NCBI GenBank assembly: GCA_944322935.1
Contig: CALUQO010000008.1
Span: 1-64,000, forward strand
Source of the DNA: Candidatus Gastranaerophilales bacterium
Lineage (GTDB): Bacteria; Cyanobacteriota; Vampirovibrionia; Gastranaerophilales; Gastranaerophilaceae
Direction of reading: 5' to 3'
Length of the DNA stretch: 64,000 nucleotides
How positions within the stretch are numbered: position 1 is the first letter of the stretch; every line of letters begins with the position of its first letter. Under the pieces are notes generated by a model, which saw only the letters and a list, made by a program, of their open reading frames with translations, was not told the DNA's origin and did no database searches. Positions 26,115 through 43,923 of the stretch are shown piece by piece. A program made the translations under genes and the position numbers.

Positions 26115-26560
26115 AAACTTCCGACCAGTTGTTCCGTTCATACAGAAAGTAACACGTCTTACTCGTTCGCCTTAAACGGCGTTACGCCTTCCGCCTACGC
26201 GTAAGGCTTCAGCCTCGGCTCACTCGCGCAAACCTGTGCTCGGCAACTCGGGCTATATAAATTGCTTTTCTTAGATAAATTAAAGTGATTGTTATAATTA
26301 CATAGCCCTCAAACAAACCTCGCTTGTAGTTGTTTGGCGGAATCGAACGGGGCTTTGCCCCATGCGAAGGCGGACGTTACTCCGCCGGAGCGTTCGTATT
26401 CCAAGACTCGTTTCTTAATTGTTATACGGCACGCAGATACTGCGTATCTGGCTTATTACCTCTCACAAAACAATACTCAATTGTTTTGTTCGGCAGAGTC
26501 TCCACTGCGCACGATACTCAATCGTGCTTGTGGAGTCCTTACAAAGGTCGGTTTTGGGAT
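26115..26560. repeat. Long inverted repeat, left arm (~430 bp)
   Basis: The reverse complement is found at 40020-40427 with very high identity. The main difference is a ~40-bp insertion here, near 26456-26500, that contains its own hairpin (CAAAACAAT-ACTCA-ATTGTTTTG). Other hairpins: CAGATAC-TGC-GTATCTG (26434-26450) and GCACGAT-ACTCA-ATCGTGC (26509-26527). No transposase frame lies in either arm. Confidence 0.8.
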
Positions 26561-26639
26561 GATTTTTTCAACTGACCGAAAAACTCTGATTACAACGGCT
26601 CACTTTGTGAGCCGTTATTGTGTATTGCCACACGCGGAA

Positions 26640-26830
26640 ATGAAAATTAAATAACAACCTTTACCGCGTAAGCGGTGTGCGAATTTGCGGACGGATGGAG
26701 TGAACAAAGTGAACGAATCCGGTAAGCGAGGGGTGCAGTGAGCTAAGGCGAAGCGCAGCGAACGACAGCACCGAGCGTAAAGCAAATTCAAGACAGCGGC
26801 TTTGCCGCTGGAATACGGCTAAACACTGTT
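26640..26830. repeat. GC-richer repeat block
   Basis: Text of the type GCGGACGGATGGAGTGAACAA and AGCGAAGCGCAGCGAACGAC is shared (with changes or inverted) with 20060-20140, 55880-55975 and 57505-57550. Confidence 0.6.
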
Positions 26831-30817: not shown

Positions 30818-31770
30818 TGTCAAAGATATTAGAAGTAAAAAACTTAAACATAGGCTTTAACCTTGCTGACGGCTTCAGACAGGCGATATATGACGTCAGC
30901 TTTTCTCTTGAAAAGGGTGAAACTCTCGCTATTGTAGGAGAATCCGGCTGCGGAAAAACCGTTTCCACTATGTCAATTTTGCAGCTTTTGCCGCCGGGTG
31001 CGCAAATAAAAAGCGGAGAGATTATCTATAACGGTCAAAATTTGCTCAATTTCAACCAAAAACAAATGCAGCAAATCAGGGGCAAAAAGATTGCTCTGAT
31101 ACCGCAGGATCCGATGACCTCGCTAAATCCGCTTTATACTATAGGCAATCAGCTTTTAGAGGTTATAGAATTGCATCAGGGACTTAAAGGAAAAGAGGCT
31201 GTTGAAGTTGCGATAAAGGCGCTTGAGCGTGTAAAAATTCCCGATGCAAAAGAAAAAATGAAAGCTTATCCCCATGAGTTTTCCGGCGGGATGAAACAGC
31301 GGGTTATTATTGCCATGGCGCTTGCCTGCAATGCAGAAATTATTATAGCGGATGAGCCTACTACCGCACTGGATGTTACGGTACAGGCTCAGATTATGGA
31401 AATCTTGAGAGAGATTAAAGAAAAGTACAATATTTCGATAATTTTGATTACCCATGACCTCGGTGTAGTGGCGCAAAATGCGGATAAAATAGCCGTAATG
31501 TATGCGGGACGCATTGTTGAATATGCTTCAAATGAACAGCTTTTTAATTCACCGAAACACCCTTATACAAAAGCTTTGTTAAACGTGATTCTTGATATAA
31601 ATACTGACACCGTGCAGACTATAGAAGGGCACCCGCCTTCAATCACCGATGATATTTCAGGCTGTCCGTTCCACCCCAGATGCAAGGATTGTATGGAAAT
31701 TTGCACTCAAAATGACCCGAAATTAAAGCCTGTAGGGGATTCTTTGGCTGCGTGTCATTTGTATGATTGA
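30817..31770 (+). CDS. Oligopeptide/dipeptide ABC transporter ATPase (OppD/DppD-like)
   Basis: 317 residues. Walker A GESGCGKT (41-48), Q-loop IPQDPMTSLNP, signature FSGGMKQR and Walker B with IADEPTTALDVTVQAQI are intact. The C-terminal extension with FHPRCKDCMEIC is the cysteine-containing tail of OppD/DppD/OppF ATPases. The family energises uptake of peptides or nickel. No permease, second ATPase or binding protein is adjacent; it is coupled to dapF instead, so its partners must be elsewhere or it serves another role. The small-peptide cassette starts 24 bp after its stop. Confidence 0.88.
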   Translation: MSKILEVKNLNIGFNLADGFRQAIYDVSFSLEKGETLAIVGESGCGKTVSTMSILQLLPPGAQIKSGEIIYNGQNLLNFNQKQMQQIRGKKIALIPQDPMTSLNPLYTIGNQLLEVIELHQGLKGKEAVEVAIKALERVKIPDAKEKMKAYPHEFSGGMKQRVIIAMALACNAEIIIADEPTTALDVTVQAQIMEILREIKEKYNISIILITHDLGVVAQNADKIAVMYAGRIVEYASNEQLFNSPKHPYTKALLNVILDINTDTVQTIEGHPPSITDDISGCPFHPRCKDCMEICTQNDPKLKPVGDSLAACHLYD

Positions 31771-31793
31771 GAGTTTTTTGATATAACATTTTT

Positions 31794-31862
31794 GGGTAAG
31801 CTCCCGTTTACCACCTCCGACACAGACTTGTTAAGGGAATGAAGCGGAAAGGTGGTGATGAA
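31794..31862 (+). promoter_or_regulatory. Structured leader of small-peptide cassette, copy 1
   Basis: GGTAA (31795) and TTACC (31808) form a hairpin. ACCACCT (31810-31816) is the exact complement of AGGTGGT (31850-31856) in the ribosome site AAAGGTGGTGA, itself one base from the ideal. It can therefore mask the start. The same layout occurs at 39629-39699, sharing ACACAGACTTGTTAAG and GAATGAAGCGGAAAGGTGG. Confidence 0.7.
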
Positions 31863-31937
31863 ATGCAATTTAGCGTAACTGAAAAAGCGCTATTTCTTAT
31901 CTTTTTGATAATAATAGCGCTCGCTTTTGCAAAATAG
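31863..31937 (+). CDS. 24-residue hydrophobic peptide, type I toxin-like, copy 1
   Basis: An ATG frame of 24 codons 7 nt after a near-perfect Shine-Dalgarno. Six polar N-terminal residues and TEKAL precede a single membrane helix (core FLIFLIIIAL) that ends in lysine. Copy 2 (39700) has the same length and 15 of 24 identical residues, and most other changes are conservative (K/R, V/I, F/W), so the frame is under protein-level selection. Size and topology recall Ldr, Ibs and Fst toxins, but no named family is recognised and no antisense promoter was found. Confidence 0.68.
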   Translation: MQFSVTEKALFLIFLIIIALAFAK

Positions 31938-31996
31938 GGAGTTAAGAAGAGCTTTAAGAGAATGGCGCCTCTTAAGGCTCTTTCCCTATATTTTTA
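31935..31996 (+). terminator. Conserved 3' hairpin of the peptide cassette, copy 1
   Basis: Inner stem GAGCTTTAAGAG (31949-31960) pairs with CTCTTAAGGCTC (31969-31980), 12 bp with one G-U. An outer TAGGGA/TCCCTA clamp (31935, 31983) includes the peptide's stop codon. TATTTTTATTA follows. In copy 2 the inner stem has a different sequence but pairs fully. Confidence 0.75.
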
Positions 31997-32168
31997 TTAT
32001 AGCTTGTTTTTTTGTTTTTTCAACAGGTGTATTTATATGGGGATTTTTCCGCAAAAATCGTTTGTGTATTCTTAAAAAATATGCTAGTCTAGAACTGTGT
32101 AATAATAATGGTTTCATGACATATATAAAAAACACGATATACTCAGTTTATTAAAAGGAGACACAATT

Positions 32169-36749: not shown

Positions 36750-36790
36750 AAACAGCCTCTTTATTTTAACGAAGAGGCTGTTTTTTTTAT
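36750..36790 (+). terminator. Terminator after ctpA, shared with the XRE-like gene
   Basis: AAACAGCCTCTT/AAGAGGCTGTTT (12 bp, 10-nt loop) followed by T8. Confidence 0.88.
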
Positions 36791-36993
36791 TTTTTTTCAA
36801 ATTTGATTAAATACCCTAATTTATCCAGAATCATTTCTAATTCATTAAAATTTGCTGTGCCTTTTTTTAATTTTGTTGAAAGATTTTGTACAGAGTATGG
36901 TTTTTGTTTTCTTTCGCTGATGTATTCAGCCAGCTGTGTTAATGTAACAGCATTGTCTATAGCAAGTTTCTTTATTTCGTTACCTAAGCTCAT
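36787..36993 (-). CDS. Small XRE-like helix-turn-helix protein, 68 aa
   Basis: Helix-turn-helix text TLTQLAEYISERKQKPYSVQNLS followed by KLKKGTANFNELEMILDKLG and YLIKFEKK. It shares the pattern L-x-x-[IL]-A-x-x-[IL]-S-E-[RK]-K-Q-K ... IL-D-x-LGY-x-I-x-F with the two module proteins at 41443 and 42111, so it is a third, more distant paralog. It has no 72-aa partner beside it. A TATAAT ends about 8 bp before the ATG and no Shine-Dalgarno is visible, so a leaderless message is likely. It converges on ctpA. Confidence 0.65.
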   Translation of the reverse strand: MSLGNEIKKLAIDNAVTLTQLAEYISERKQKPYSVQNLSTKLKKGTANFNELEMILDKLGYLIKFEKK

Positions 36994-39628: not shown

Positions 39629-39699
39629 GGGTAAGCTCCTGTTTACCACCGCCGACACAGACTTGTTAAGAGAATGAAGCGGAAAGGTGGTGATATGAT
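39629..39699 (+). promoter_or_regulatory. Structured leader of small-peptide cassette, copy 2
   Basis: GGTAA...TTACC hairpin, ACCACC opposing GGTGGT of the ribosome site AAAGGTGGTGA, as in copy 1 (31794). An ATG-ATG-TGA minimal frame overlaps the GTG start of the peptide. Confidence 0.68.
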
Positions 39700-39774
39700 G
39701 TGAAATTCTGTATAACAGAAAGAGCGCTATGGCTTATCTTGTTGATAATCATAGCACTCATCTTCACTAAATAG
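39700..39774 (+). CDS. 24-residue hydrophobic peptide, type I toxin-like, copy 2
   Basis: GTG-started frame of 24 codons. Reads KFCITERALW then the membrane core LILLIIIALIF and ends in lysine. Fifteen of 24 residues match copy 1 at 31863, with the T-E-[KR]-A-L motif and the I-I-I-A-L core fixed. The leader, ribosome site and 3' stem are also conserved, so the unit as a whole is maintained. Role unknown; a membrane-acting toxin or regulatory small protein are the main options. Confidence 0.65.
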   Translation: MKFCITERALWLILLIIIALIFTK

Positions 39775-39835
39775 GGAGTTAAGAAAGCTCTAAAGGTATA
39801 GCCCACCTTTAGGGCTTTTCCCTATACTTTTATTA
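39772..39835 (+). terminator. Conserved 3' hairpin of the peptide cassette, copy 2
   Basis: AGCTCTAAAGGT (39786-39797) pairs with ACCTTTAGGGCT (39805-39816), 12 bp with one G-U, inside a TAGGGA/TCCCTA clamp that again includes the stop codon. TACTTTTATT follows. Compared with copy 1 most stem positions differ yet pairing is kept. Confidence 0.75.
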
Positions 39836-39899
39836 TAAACAATTTATTTTTTTATTCAAGGCTTCAGTTTTTTATTCAAAAAGCCACAGTGTATTTTTG

Positions 39900-40019
39900 T
39901 TAGGCAGGTAGACTTTAGCCTACTGATAACAAGCATCACCCGAAGGCAAAAATCGTGCAGTCATTCTTGTATATGTTACGTAATTCGATGACAGAAATAA
40001 TTTTTTCTTAACATAAATA
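39900..40019. repeat. Hairpin repeat and spacer
   Basis: GTAGACTTTAGCCTAC (39907-39922) is a variant of the GCAGACTTTAGTCTGC hairpin at 16463. The rest shows no gene. TATGTTACGTAATTCGATG near 39967 recurs in part at 41003 (TTACGTAACATATAC). Confidence 0.5.
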
Positions 40020-40427
40020 ATCAAAAAATCCGACCTTTGTAAGGACTCCACAAGCACGATTGAGTATCGTGCGCAGTGGAGGCAGGCTAAGCCAGATACG
40101 CAGTATCTGCGTGCCGTATAACAATTAAGAAACGAGTCTTGGAATACGAACGCTCCGGCGGAGTAACGTCCGCCTTCGCATGGGGCAAAGCCCCGTTCGA
40201 TTCCGCCAAACAACAACAAGCGAGGTTTGTTTGAGGGCTATGTAATTATAACAATCACTTTAATTTATCTAAGAAAAGCAATTTATATAGCCCGAGTTGC
40301 CGAGCACAGGTTTGCGCGAGTGAGCCGAGGCTGAAGCCTTACGCGTAGGCGGAAGGCGTAACGCCGTTTAAGGCGAACGAGTAAGACGTGTTACTTTCTG
40401 TATGAACGGAACATCAGGTCGGGAGTT
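40020..40427. repeat. Long inverted repeat, right arm (~405 bp)
   Basis: Reverse complement of 26115-26560 at very high identity, 13.5 kb apart, lacking the ~40-bp insertion of the left arm. Frames in it (for example 39920-40219 leftward) are matched by equally spurious frames in the left arm. Confidence 0.8.
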
Positions 40428-41063: not shown

Positions 41064-41282
41064 TTATAATCCGAACATGTCTTTTTTAATATCCGAGAGT
41101 TTGTATTTTTGTTTGTCCGTATAGGCAGCAAGTGCAGAAGCAAGATAAAGGCGGTCAAGTTTGCGCATTTCGTAATTGTACTCTAAGGAGTCTTTGAGAA
41201 TATGTGCCAGACTGGCTATTATCCAGATGTCATTAATAGACTCTTCAAATTCTTTTTTTGTTTTTTCAAGATTTTTTACCAT
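41064..41282 (-). CDS. 72-aa helical module protein, unit 1
   Basis: No named family. Helical, with core DIWIIASLAHILKDSLEYN, then KLDRLYLASAL, and the C terminus YKLSDIKKDMFGL. Paralog of 41729 (the tail Q-K-Y-[KR]-L-S-[DN]-I-K-K-D-[MI]-F-G-L is nearly identical) and more distantly of 15629. AAGGA precedes the ATG. It is divergent from the XRE-like gene at 41443, with 160 bp between; that gap holds a GTTGTTTTT/AAAAACAAC inverted repeat (41324-41355). Confidence 0.68.
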   Translation of the reverse strand: MVKNLEKTKKEFEESINDIWIIASLAHILKDSLEYNYEMRKLDRLYLASALAAYTDKQKYKLSDIKKDMFGL

Positions 41283-41442: not shown

Positions 41443-41655
41443 ATGTCTATAAGAAAAAAAATTAAAAATATTTTAACAAATGAAGATTTGACGATAAAAA
41501 AGCTCGCCGAAGCGTTATCTGAAAAAAAACAAAAACATATAAACCCTGATACAATTTCTCAAAAATTAATCAGAGATTCTATTAAATACAAAGATGTAGA
41601 AGAAATTCTTGACGTTCTCGGCTATGAGATAGTTTTTCAAAAGAAAAAGTTCTAA
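41443..41655 (+). CDS. Small XRE-like DNA-binding protein, unit 1
   Basis: 70 residues. Basic N-terminal helix (MSIRKKIKNIL), then a helix-turn-helix DLTIKKLAEALSEKKQ ... NPDTISQKLI and the C-terminal VEEILDVLGYEIVFQKK. This layout matches short XRE-family repressors of the 'LAEKLNxSxxNLSxKLKR' type. AAGGTG is just upstream. Paralog of 42111, with which it shares a 57-bp identical block at the 3' end (41589-41645). Probably represses the divergent pair; inferred. Confidence 0.7.
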   Translation: MSIRKKIKNILTNEDLTIKKLAEALSEKKQKHINPDTISQKLIRDSIKYKDVEEILDVLGYEIVFQKKKF

Positions 41656-41728: not shown

Positions 41729-41947
41729 TTATAACCCGAATATATCCTTTTTAATGTTCGAGAGCCTGTATTTTTGTTTTTGTATTAAATCTTCAATAGT
41801 GCAAACAAGATAAACCGTATCGAGTCTGTTGATATTGTTATCATACTCAAGCGTTGCTTTTAGTATTTTTGTAAGACTTGCTATTTTCCATATTTCGTAT
41901 ACAGAATTTGAGAAATTGCGTTTTAGTTTTTTATTTCTTTTTATCAT
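41729..41947 (-). CDS. 72-aa helical module protein, unit 2
   Basis: Same length and layout as unit 1: EIWKIASLTKILKATLEYD, RLDTVYLVCTI, then KQKYRLSNIKKDIFGL. About 40-45% identical to 41064 by eye. The LTKIL...LEYD...RLD spacing also matches the 15629 protein. It is divergent from 42111 with 163 bp between. Function unknown. Confidence 0.68.
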   Translation of the reverse strand: MIKRNKKLKRNFSNSVYEIWKIASLTKILKATLEYDNNINRLDTVYLVCTIEDLIQKQKYRLSNIKKDIFGL

Positions 41948-42110: not shown

Positions 42111-42320
42111 ATGTCGGTTAAAAACAGAATAAAATCAATCCTGGCTTTAGAAGGGATAAAAATTAACGAATTGTCGGTTTTGTTAAAAGAAAAATACAAT
42201 AAAGATATTTTACCTAACACTCTTTCCAAGCAGTTAAACAGAGAGATTATAAGATTCAAAGATGTAGAAGAAATTCTTGACGTTCTCGGCTATGAGATAG
42301 TTTTTCAAAAGAAGCAGTAG
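42111..42320 (+). CDS. Small XRE-like DNA-binding protein, unit 2
   Basis: 69 residues, MSVKNRIKSILALEGIKINE then LSVLLKEKYNKDILPNTLSK and the shared VEEILDVLGYEIVFQKK. AAAGGAGA lies ahead of the ATG. The N-terminal two thirds differ widely from unit 1 while the last 57 bp are identical at DNA level. The gap to its divergent partner contains a GGAC-TAAAT-GTCC dyad near 41977. Confidence 0.7.
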   Translation: MSVKNRIKSILALEGIKINELSVLLKEKYNKDILPNTLSKQLNREIIRFKDVEEILDVLGYEIVFQKKQ

Positions 42321-42501: not shown

Positions 42502-42536
42502 AAAAAGCCTCCGATAATTTTCGGAAGCTTTTTGTT
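42502..42536 (-). terminator. Terminator, probably of tsf read through repeats
   Basis: AAAAAGC-TCCGA and TCGGA-GCTTTTT stem; the first terminator-like structure leftward of tsf, about 520 bp beyond its stop. It could also serve the rightward XRE-like gene. Confidence 0.7.
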
Positions 42537-42549
42537 TGAATTTTAAAGC

Positions 42550-42781
42550 ACTCACCGGCTCGATTATCCTACGTCGCTGTTATTATGTTGCGCCCTTTGG
42601 GCTTCGAGTTCTCGAACCCCGACGGGCTGCACATCGGCTTACGCGTTTTTCCGCCTGTCGAATCGAAGATTCGTTCGTTTCGTTAACTGCGTTAACTCAA
42701 CAACGGCGGCATTTGATTGTTCGGCTTTACGGTCTTTCAGTTCTGAAAGCCCTGCAAGCCTATACACCGCTTACGCGTTTT
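42550..42781. repeat. 232-bp direct repeat, copy 1
   Basis: Identical to 42827-43058 except one base (TTCTGAAAG versus TTCTGGAAG). It contains a chain of small hairpins: GCCC-TTT-GGGC, AGTTC-TC-GAACC, CGAATC-GAA-GATTCG, GTTAAC-TGC-GTTAAC. The 45-bp spacer between copies has CGTAACGTTACACCCG. Confidence 0.9.
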
Positions 42782-42826
42782 CGCTCCTGTGGGTATCTCG
42801 CCTTTGTTCGTAACGTTACACCCGTT

Positions 42827-43058
42827 ACTCACCGGCTCGATTATCCTACGTCGCTGTTATTATGTTGCGCCCTTTGGGCTTCGAGTTCTCGAACCCCGAC
42901 GGGCTGCACATCGGCTTACGCGTTTTTCCGCCTGTCGAATCGAAGATTCGTTCGTTTCGTTAACTGCGTTAACTCAACAACGGCGGCATTTGATTGTTCG
43001 GCTTTACGGTCTTTCAGTTCTGGAAGCCCTGCAAGCCTATACACCGCTTACGCGTTTT
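42827..43058. repeat. 232-bp direct repeat, copy 2, reaching the tsf stop codon
   Basis: Same sequence as copy 1. Its right end overlaps the tsf stop codon by two bases, so the repeat boundary coincides with the end of the coding sequence. Confidence 0.9.
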
Positions 43059-43923
43059 ACTTGCCGGCCATCTGGCTTGCTACTTCTTCAGCAAAATTGT
43101 CTTGTCTTTTTTCAAGACCTTCGCCCAATACGTAGCGAACAAATGATTTGATTTGCAATTTGCCTTCAATCAATTGAGCAACTGTTTCGTCAGGATTTTT
43201 AACAAACGGCTGTTCCAACAAGCATCTTGAAGCCATCAATTTGTTAATTCTGCCTTCAACGATTTTTGCTCTGATGTTTTCAGGTTTTTTAGCAAGGTCT
43301 TCTTTACCCATTTCGATTCTTGTTTCTTCATCGATAACGGATTGCGGAATTTCATCTCTTGAAACAAATTCAGGAGCATTAGAAGCGATGTGCAAGCAGA
43401 TATCTTTTTCTAATGTTTCATCAGCTTTGTCTGTATTTAACAGAACACCGATTTTACCGTTGTGAATATAAGTAGCGGGGTTGCCTTCAACGATTACAAA
43501 TCTTCTGACAGTGATTTTTTCACCGATTGTAGCAACTTTTTCTTTAACGATATCTTCGATTTTTTTGCCGCATTTAGCGCATGTAGAAGCTAACAATTCT
43601 TCAACATTGGCAGGTTTTGTTGCAACAACCTGTTTTGCAAGGTTAGAAACAAGTTCTTTAAACTCATCATTTTTTGCAACGAAGTCAGTTTCGCAGTTTA
43701 CTTCAATCATTGCACCGACATTGCCTTCAATATATGAACCTACCAAACCTTCAGCAGCAATTCTGCCCATTTTCTTTTCAGCGGAAGCAATACCTTTTTG
43801 ACGAAGGAATTCCATTGCTTTTTCCATATCACCGTTGTTTTCAACAAGAGCTTTTTTTGCATCAAGAATACCTGCACCGGTTTTTTCTCTGAGTTCTTTT
43901 ACCATAGCAGCAGTTATTGTCAT
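43057..43923 (-). CDS. tsf: Elongation factor Ts
   Basis: 288 residues. EF-Ts is the nucleotide exchange factor for EF-Tu. N-terminal MVKELREKTGAGILDAKKAL and the core VNCETDFVAKNDEFK (TDFVA motif ~80-84) are diagnostic; the dimerisation/core domain runs to the C terminus. A CAKC pair near 115 is not typical and may be incidental. The gene follows rpsB in the usual order but with a terminator between, so it probably has its own promoter. Its stop is overlapped by a 232-bp repeat. Confidence 0.95.
   Translation of the reverse strand: MTITAAMVKELREKTGAGILDAKKALVENNGDMEKAMEFLRQKGIASAEKKMGRIAAEGLVGSYIEGNVGAMIEVNCETDFVAKNDEFKELVSNLAKQVVATKPANVEELLASTCAKCGKKIEDIVKEKVATIGEKITVRRFVIVEGNPATYIHNGKIGVLLNTDKADETLEKDICLHIASNAPEFVSRDEIPQSVIDEETRIEMGKEDLAKKPENIRAKIVEGRINKLMASRCLLEQPFVKNPDETVAQLIEGKLQIKSFVRYVLGEGLEKRQDNFAEEVASQMAGK

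Follow-up and report, generated by a model that had tools for sequence, protein, structure and literature searches.

Duplicated units and their setting

The window, a 64,000-nucleotide stretch of a Candidatus Gastranaerophilales contig, carries two copies of a small structured unit. Copy 1 occupies positions 31794 to 32023 and copy 2 positions 39629 to 39859, antisense promoters included; they are 81% identical across 208 bp and were the sole good DNA matches in a search of the 2.3-Mb genome. Copy 1 lies between the gene for the ATPase of an oligopeptide ABC transporter and that for pyruvate phosphate dikinase; copy 2 starts 7 bases past the stop codon of an 829-residue open reading frame (ORF) that reads as leuS.

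The original prediction described a duplicated unit with a hairpin leader, an ACCACC element, a small frame, and a 3′ stem, and both copies are as it described them. The 24-codon frames agree at 15 of 24 peptide positions (start codon not counted). The 3′ stems differ between the copies yet still pair, and family-wide each unit's own stem arms pair better than swapped arms. The statement that no antisense promoter was present proved wrong, as each copy has a minus-strand promoter just beyond the 3′ end then reported; a conserved hairpin within the coding sequence (CDS) had also gone unlisted. The features of copy 1 are as follows.

31759-31787, plus strand: candidate sense promoter, TTGTAT-17-TATAAC (from sequence)
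31794-31988, plus strand: predicted toxin mRNA, beginning at GGGTAAGC and ending with the 3′ stem, TTTCCCTA (sequence, fold)
31810-31815, plus strand: anti-Shine-Dalgarno (anti-SD) ACCACC, pairing with 31851-31856
31830-31835, plus strand: leader direct repeat GTTAAG in a hairpin loop, co-varying with 31941-31946
31851-31856, plus strand: Shine-Dalgarno (SD) GGTGGT (from sequence)
31863-31937, plus strand: peptide 1, MQFSVTEKALFLIFLIIIALAFAK, ATG start (dN/dS of 0.33 in the subfamily; family HMM E value of 4e-13)
31880-31992, minus strand: predicted antisense RNA (antitoxin), about 110 nt (promoter, terminator, fold z of -6.0)
31886-31921: hairpin inside the CDS, then TTTTTC on the minus strand; predicted antisense terminator (129/129 units)
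31937-31988, plus strand: 3′ stem-loop of the mRNA, doubling as the 5′ hairpin of the antisense RNA (native arms pair better than swapped ones, z of -15)
31941-31946, plus strand: 3′ direct repeat GTTAAG, CUUAAC in the antisense RNA (co-variation, fold)
31996-32023, minus strand: antisense promoter, -10 TATAAT at 32001-31996, -35 TTGAAA at 32023-32018, spacer of 16 (from sequence)

Those of copy 2 are as follows.

39629-39824, plus strand: predicted toxin mRNA (from sequence)
39645-39650, plus strand: anti-SD ACCACC, pairing with 39686-39691
39665-39670, plus strand: leader direct repeat GTTAAG (from sequence)
39686-39691, plus strand: SD GGTGGT (from sequence)
39700-39774, plus strand: peptide 2, (M)KFCITERALWLILLIIIALIFTK, GTG start (family profile match, dN/dS)
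39774-39824, plus strand: 3′ stem-loop (sequence, arm swaps)
39778-39783, plus strand: 3′ direct repeat GTTAAG (from sequence)
39832-39859, minus strand: antisense promoter, -10 TATAAT at 39837-39832, -35 TTGAAT at 39859-39854, spacer of 16 (from sequence)

Other repeats are present in the window. A dispersed repeat of ~300 bp occurs in at least two places (26330-26654 and 39920-40219), and the ORFs that match it are probably spurious (GGIERGFAPCEGGRYSAGAFVFQDSFLNCYTARRYCVSGL); the segment at 42536-43151 has internal repeats of about 250 bp, again with matching ORFs (GSIILRRCYYVAPFGLRVLEPRRAAHRLTRFSACRIEDSFVSLTALTQQRRHLIVRLYGL). An HTH-like small protein of ~70 residues is found in three copies (36787-36993, 41443-41655, and 42111-42320). 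Near two of these, on the other strand, lie ORFs of ~72 residues ending KKDMFGL/KKDIFGL (41064-41282 and 41729-41947), and the HTH-like protein and the ~72-residue ORF may be another duplicated two-gene module.

Relatives and the peptide frame

The computational tests set by the original prediction included a search for further copies with covarying stems and an estimate of dN/dS. Such copies were found in many relatives. DNA searches recovered relatives in 24 of 97 family genomes and a peptide profile matched 119 of 383, the genomes compared being mostly metagenome assemblies. The sole match outside the family in the wider order was weak and contained a stop codon, and in a 292-genome sample of the phylum every match fell within the same GTDB family. 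Named records carrying the leader motif were Candidatus Gastranaerophilales or uncultured-bacterium bins. Among viral contigs, phages, and plasmids, no relatives were matched in searches that a 24-residue query makes weak, and no record of the present family was found in the open-access literature, which does not prove absence.

From Gastranaerophilales genomes we extracted 136 distinct related units; because these are related by descent, unit counts are not counts of independent events, and the arm-swap tests and repeat table given below guard against shared descent in part. Subfamily 1 (59 units, 3′ end GGGAGTTAAG) holds both window copies, subfamily 2 has 70 units (3′ end GGGCTTTTAA), and 7 of the 136 fell into neither. 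Some genomes have up to nine units, some of them in tandem. Tandem arrays of two to four subfamily 2 units, ~300 to 390 bp apart, were observed in L023, L026, L030, L106, L115, L135, and L154, the peptide and stem varying slightly from one unit to the next.

Pairwise dN/dS in subfamily 1 was 0.33 in the peptide frame versus 0.93 to 1.10 in the other two frames; the corresponding values in subfamily 2 were 0.40 versus 0.80 to 1.28. Values this far below 1 indicate that the frame is not neutral, and comparison among relatives shows it, as judged by these substitution rates, to be under purifying selection, i.e., a genuine gene. The possibility that the frame is a mere palindrome artifact was considered and rejected, since dN/dS is low in the true frame only.

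Peptides of the family are mostly 21 to 25 residues long, with a mean GRAVY of about 1.7 and a net charge mostly of 0 to +2. They have a charged T-E-K start and a C-terminal end that is usually basic or polar. By these predicted properties, the product is a short hydrophobic membrane peptide, as expected of a type I toxin. Searches of Pfam and NCBIfam with the peptides gave nothing above the cutoff and matched no known toxin family; in Rfam, RNase P was the sole match in the window at the gathering score, with no meaningful weak match for the units.

A masked mRNA and its predicted antisense gene

The predicted toxin mRNA has a 5′ GGGTA that is kept in most relatives, and the copy 1 RNA folds with an energy of -72.7 kcal/mol (z = -6.0; 0 of 200 shuffles were as good). 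Its sense promoter is the least certain part of the unit, because across the family it stands weakly above shuffled sequences; conservation of sense promoters is weak, and support is weakest for copy 2.

Helices were tested by exchanging arms among units in 5,000 permutations, for comparison with the arms native to each unit. Own pairs won in 5,000 of 5,000 permutations, in both subfamilies, for the leader-SD helix, the CDS hairpin, the 3′ stem, and the pairing of the 5′ end with sequence after the stop codon; this long-distance 5′-3′ pairing scored a z of about -6 in each. By eye, the SD and its partner switch together (ACCACC/GGTGGT, TTCCCC/GGGGG, and CCTCC/GGAGG). The comparison thus shows a covarying anti-SD/SD helix and, with it, a toxin mRNA whose ribosome site is masked, as in type I systems. 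A blind column-pair covariation scan placed the 3′ stem, CDS hairpin, and leader helices of subfamily 1, and the matching helices of subfamily 2, at or near the top, with weaker helices near the control level. In copy 2, an upstream mini-frame, ATG ATG TGA, comes right behind the ribosome site and overlaps the GTG start (39694-39702), an arrangement seen likewise in L050 and L086; this mini-frame could couple or dampen translation of the copy 2 peptide.

Both antisense promoters are of the sigma-70 type and lie directly past the 3′ stem. Across the family, such a promoter was present in 127 of 128 testable units, compared with about 30% of shuffled sequences, and its spacer was 16 or 17 in every case. 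The -10 element lies downstream of the stop codon, mostly by 55 to 61 bases in subfamily 1 and by 44 to 51 in subfamily 2. The CDS hairpin was followed by an antisense U tract in all 129 units, mostly with 5 or 6 U residues among the next 8 nt; units that carry other peptides on the same scaffold also have a perfect CDS hairpin with an A run in front. From the minus-strand promoter and this hairpin with its U tract, we predict an antisense RNA of ~110 nt, in which the 3′ stem is transcribed first and the CDS hairpin second. The copy 1 antisense RNA is predicted to fold with a z of -6.0, leaving CUUAAC unpaired in a bulge. Conservation of promoter and terminator, as the comparison shows it, predicts an antisense gene complementary to the toxin mRNA, which is a hallmark of type I loci.

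In subfamily 1, the 6-mer of the leader loop recurs past the stop codon, and the two positions change in step. Both read GTTAAG in 47 cases, GTTATG in 7, GTTACG in 2, and GTGAAG in 2, with 2 mismatches (table of 47/0/2/11; Fisher P = 2e-10), a signal that comes from this targeted test; in the blind column-pair scan, repeat covariation lies at the alignment-wide background. Units with other peptides have different repeats that are still shared between the two positions (GGCGAA, CTGTAAA, CTGTAAC, ACGAAGAA, and TGATAG), and in group B the longest own match was 6.4 versus 4.5 when swapped (0 of 10,000 permutations). Identical repeats cannot pair together, but the leader copy can serve as a pairing partner for the antisense RNA, whose sequence is complementary to that of the 3′ copy. 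Repeats changing in step are what would be expected if the antisense RNA pairs with the leader too, as in par/fst, and of all the observations here this coupling, visible in sequence comparison, argues most strongly for a functional antisense RNA. An antisense-leader repeat was also sought in subfamily 2 by swap and repeat tests, and no co-varying repeat was found; leader contact is therefore not universal, and subfamily 2 may use the 3′ overlap alone.

Site turnover, interpretation, and known type I systems

The same RNA scaffold is found with other peptides (MKREIIKKVLATLGLLIQILAEFV, MKRHLIKKALLGIRLFIDLIVYFI, MKRQIIKSALVVLDALLKVLLIFI, and MKTMIIIKAIIIAVIMALKFVLLLL), and a profile of the MKR-type peptide (MKR-IIK) matched 81 of 383 family genomes. 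In congeners G154 and G171, a unit of the MKRQIIKSALVVL type stands at the leuS site, in the position that copy 2 takes in the window genome. In G072 (L034:787-912, contig C43), the leuS site holds a truncated chimera that keeps the 3′ part of the peptide and the stem and has lost the leader, the ribosome site, and probably the antisense -35 element; it reads as a decayed or chimeric copy. Comparison of the copy 1 site (31778-32043) with L013, L061, L070, L079, L199, L201, and L202 showed that four congeners (G072, G275, G154, and G098) have the unit in the opposite orientation to that of the window genome and that in three (G171, G043, and G206) the site is empty. A segment of ~250 bp seems to have been flipped in place, with no transposase gene inside. 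Together, the comparisons at the two sites indicate that units are gained, lost, and inverted and exchange their peptides, with the RNA frame as the part that lasts. We lean slightly toward viewing the unit as a modular type I chassis. A single RNA regulatory frame would take in unrelated toxin peptides by exchange, the antisense terminator hairpin would be rebuilt within each new coding sequence, and leader and 3′ repeats switching together (GTTAAG, GTTATG, GTTACG, GTGAAG, and those of the other-peptide units above) would yield antitoxins of different specificity.

On the comparisons above, we think it likely that these units are a new family of type I toxin-antitoxin loci with par-like logic and nonhomologous toxins. 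The type I idea put forward in the original prediction survives the computational tests, and a putative antisense gene has been found for both copies. We infer transcription of both RNAs, antisense action, toxicity, and a biological role along the following lines. The sense strand would produce an mRNA of ~200 nt for a single-helix hydrophobic membrane peptide of 21 to 25 residues, silenced twice, by the leader anti-SD and by a 5′ end paired to sequence just past the stop codon. The minus strand would produce the ~110-nt antisense RNA from a strong promoter beyond the mRNA 3′ stem, ending at the CDS hairpin. In the window's subfamily, this RNA would be fully complementary to the 3′ half of the toxin mRNA and would also present, in an exposed bulge, the sequence CUUAAC, which complements GUUAAG in the leader loop, so that the RNA could seize both mRNA ends. 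It would keep the toxin mRNA silent by blocking translation or would trigger its cleavage. Should transcription stop or the locus be lost, antisense RNA would fall, and the longer-lived toxin mRNA would become available for translation into a peptide that would harm the membrane. An early step may resemble that of AapA, in which full-length mRNA is inert through 5′-3′ pairing and requires trimming (PMC6733600); the swap test supports 5′-3′ pairing of the predicted full-length mRNA here, and trimming is possible.

The sequence evidence bears on an antisense-controlled peptide and not on its toxicity, and the copies are chromosomal, with no plasmid, phage, or viral-contig match. Both points would suit a nontoxic small membrane protein, such as a regulator of a membrane complex, kept under tight antisense-RNA control. 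We consider this unlikely, although worth keeping in mind: unrelated peptides fill the same scaffold, even at one site downstream of leuS, presence is patchy within the genus, and double silencing of an mRNA is typical for peptides that must never be made accidentally. A copy 1 site empty in three congeners and inverted in four, and genomes with up to nine units, some in tandem, might instead suggest a short MITE-like mobile repeat with palindromes and promoters as by-products and a frame that is no gene. This is very improbable given a dN/dS of 0.33 to 0.40 in the frame only, the covarying SD/anti-SD, and the fixed promoter geometry; the window genome, moreover, has just two copies, and neither terminal repeats nor a target duplication was noticed. 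Least probable is a locus whose chief product is the antisense RNA, acting in trans on other targets, with the peptide secondary: the antisense promoter surpasses the sense promoter in strength and conservation, but antisense excess is a requirement of type I antitoxins, the conserved complementarity follows the unit's own leader and 3′ end, and the peptide frame is under selection.

Read as type I toxin-antitoxin loci, the units can be set beside par(pAD1)/Fst and Fst-like systems, type I systems found in Firmicutes, of which par(pAD1) has the direct repeats DRa and DRb (PMC7472228). Shared with these are convergent promoters, a short membrane toxin, a leader stem-loop masking the SD, a 5′ end paired inside the mRNA, and direct repeats for antisense-leader pairing (PMC7472228). 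That repeat architecture is found in the window's subfamily and group B and not in subfamily 2. The conserved peptide here is without proline or PXXXG and has no Pfam match, whereas Fst/Ldr toxins have PXXXG(C) and a charged C-terminal tail. In par/Fst, a bidirectional terminator is common to both RNAs; here, in contrast, the antisense RNA starts past the toxin 3′ stem, which falls within its 5′ end, overlaps most of the frame, and has its terminator in the toxin frame.

AapA is a basic peptide of 30 residues. The AapA/IsoA systems of Helicobacter likewise have a cis-overlapping antisense RNA, anti-SD sequences, and 5′-3′ mRNA pairing (PMC6733600). They differ from the present units in antisense position and direct-repeat logic, and the peptide is different by description. 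In TxpA/RatA and BsrG/SR4 of Bacillus, the antisense RNA comes from beyond the toxin gene and overlaps its 3′ part. These are closest for subfamily 2, which also has no repeats; their toxins are longer, sequence similarity was undetected, and leader repeats are absent.

MsoT1/MsoA1 of Microcystis (Cyanobacteria), from the same broad phylum as the present family, is a type I-like system with a two-helix toxin of 63 residues, compared with 21 to 25 here, and the sections of the report cited describe no such repeats (PMC12390103). According to the same sections, no type I system was known outside Proteobacteria, Firmicutes, and Tenericutes until this case in 2025 (PMC12390103). If our reading is true, the present family, which has no match in the family libraries searched, would be a large multicopy type I family in an uncultured gut lineage related to cyanobacteria. 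Its co-varying repeats would supply naturally occurring sets of matched RNA pairs with which to test how antitoxin specificity evolves, and in its coding hairpin one sequence would serve as both membrane helix and antisense terminator.
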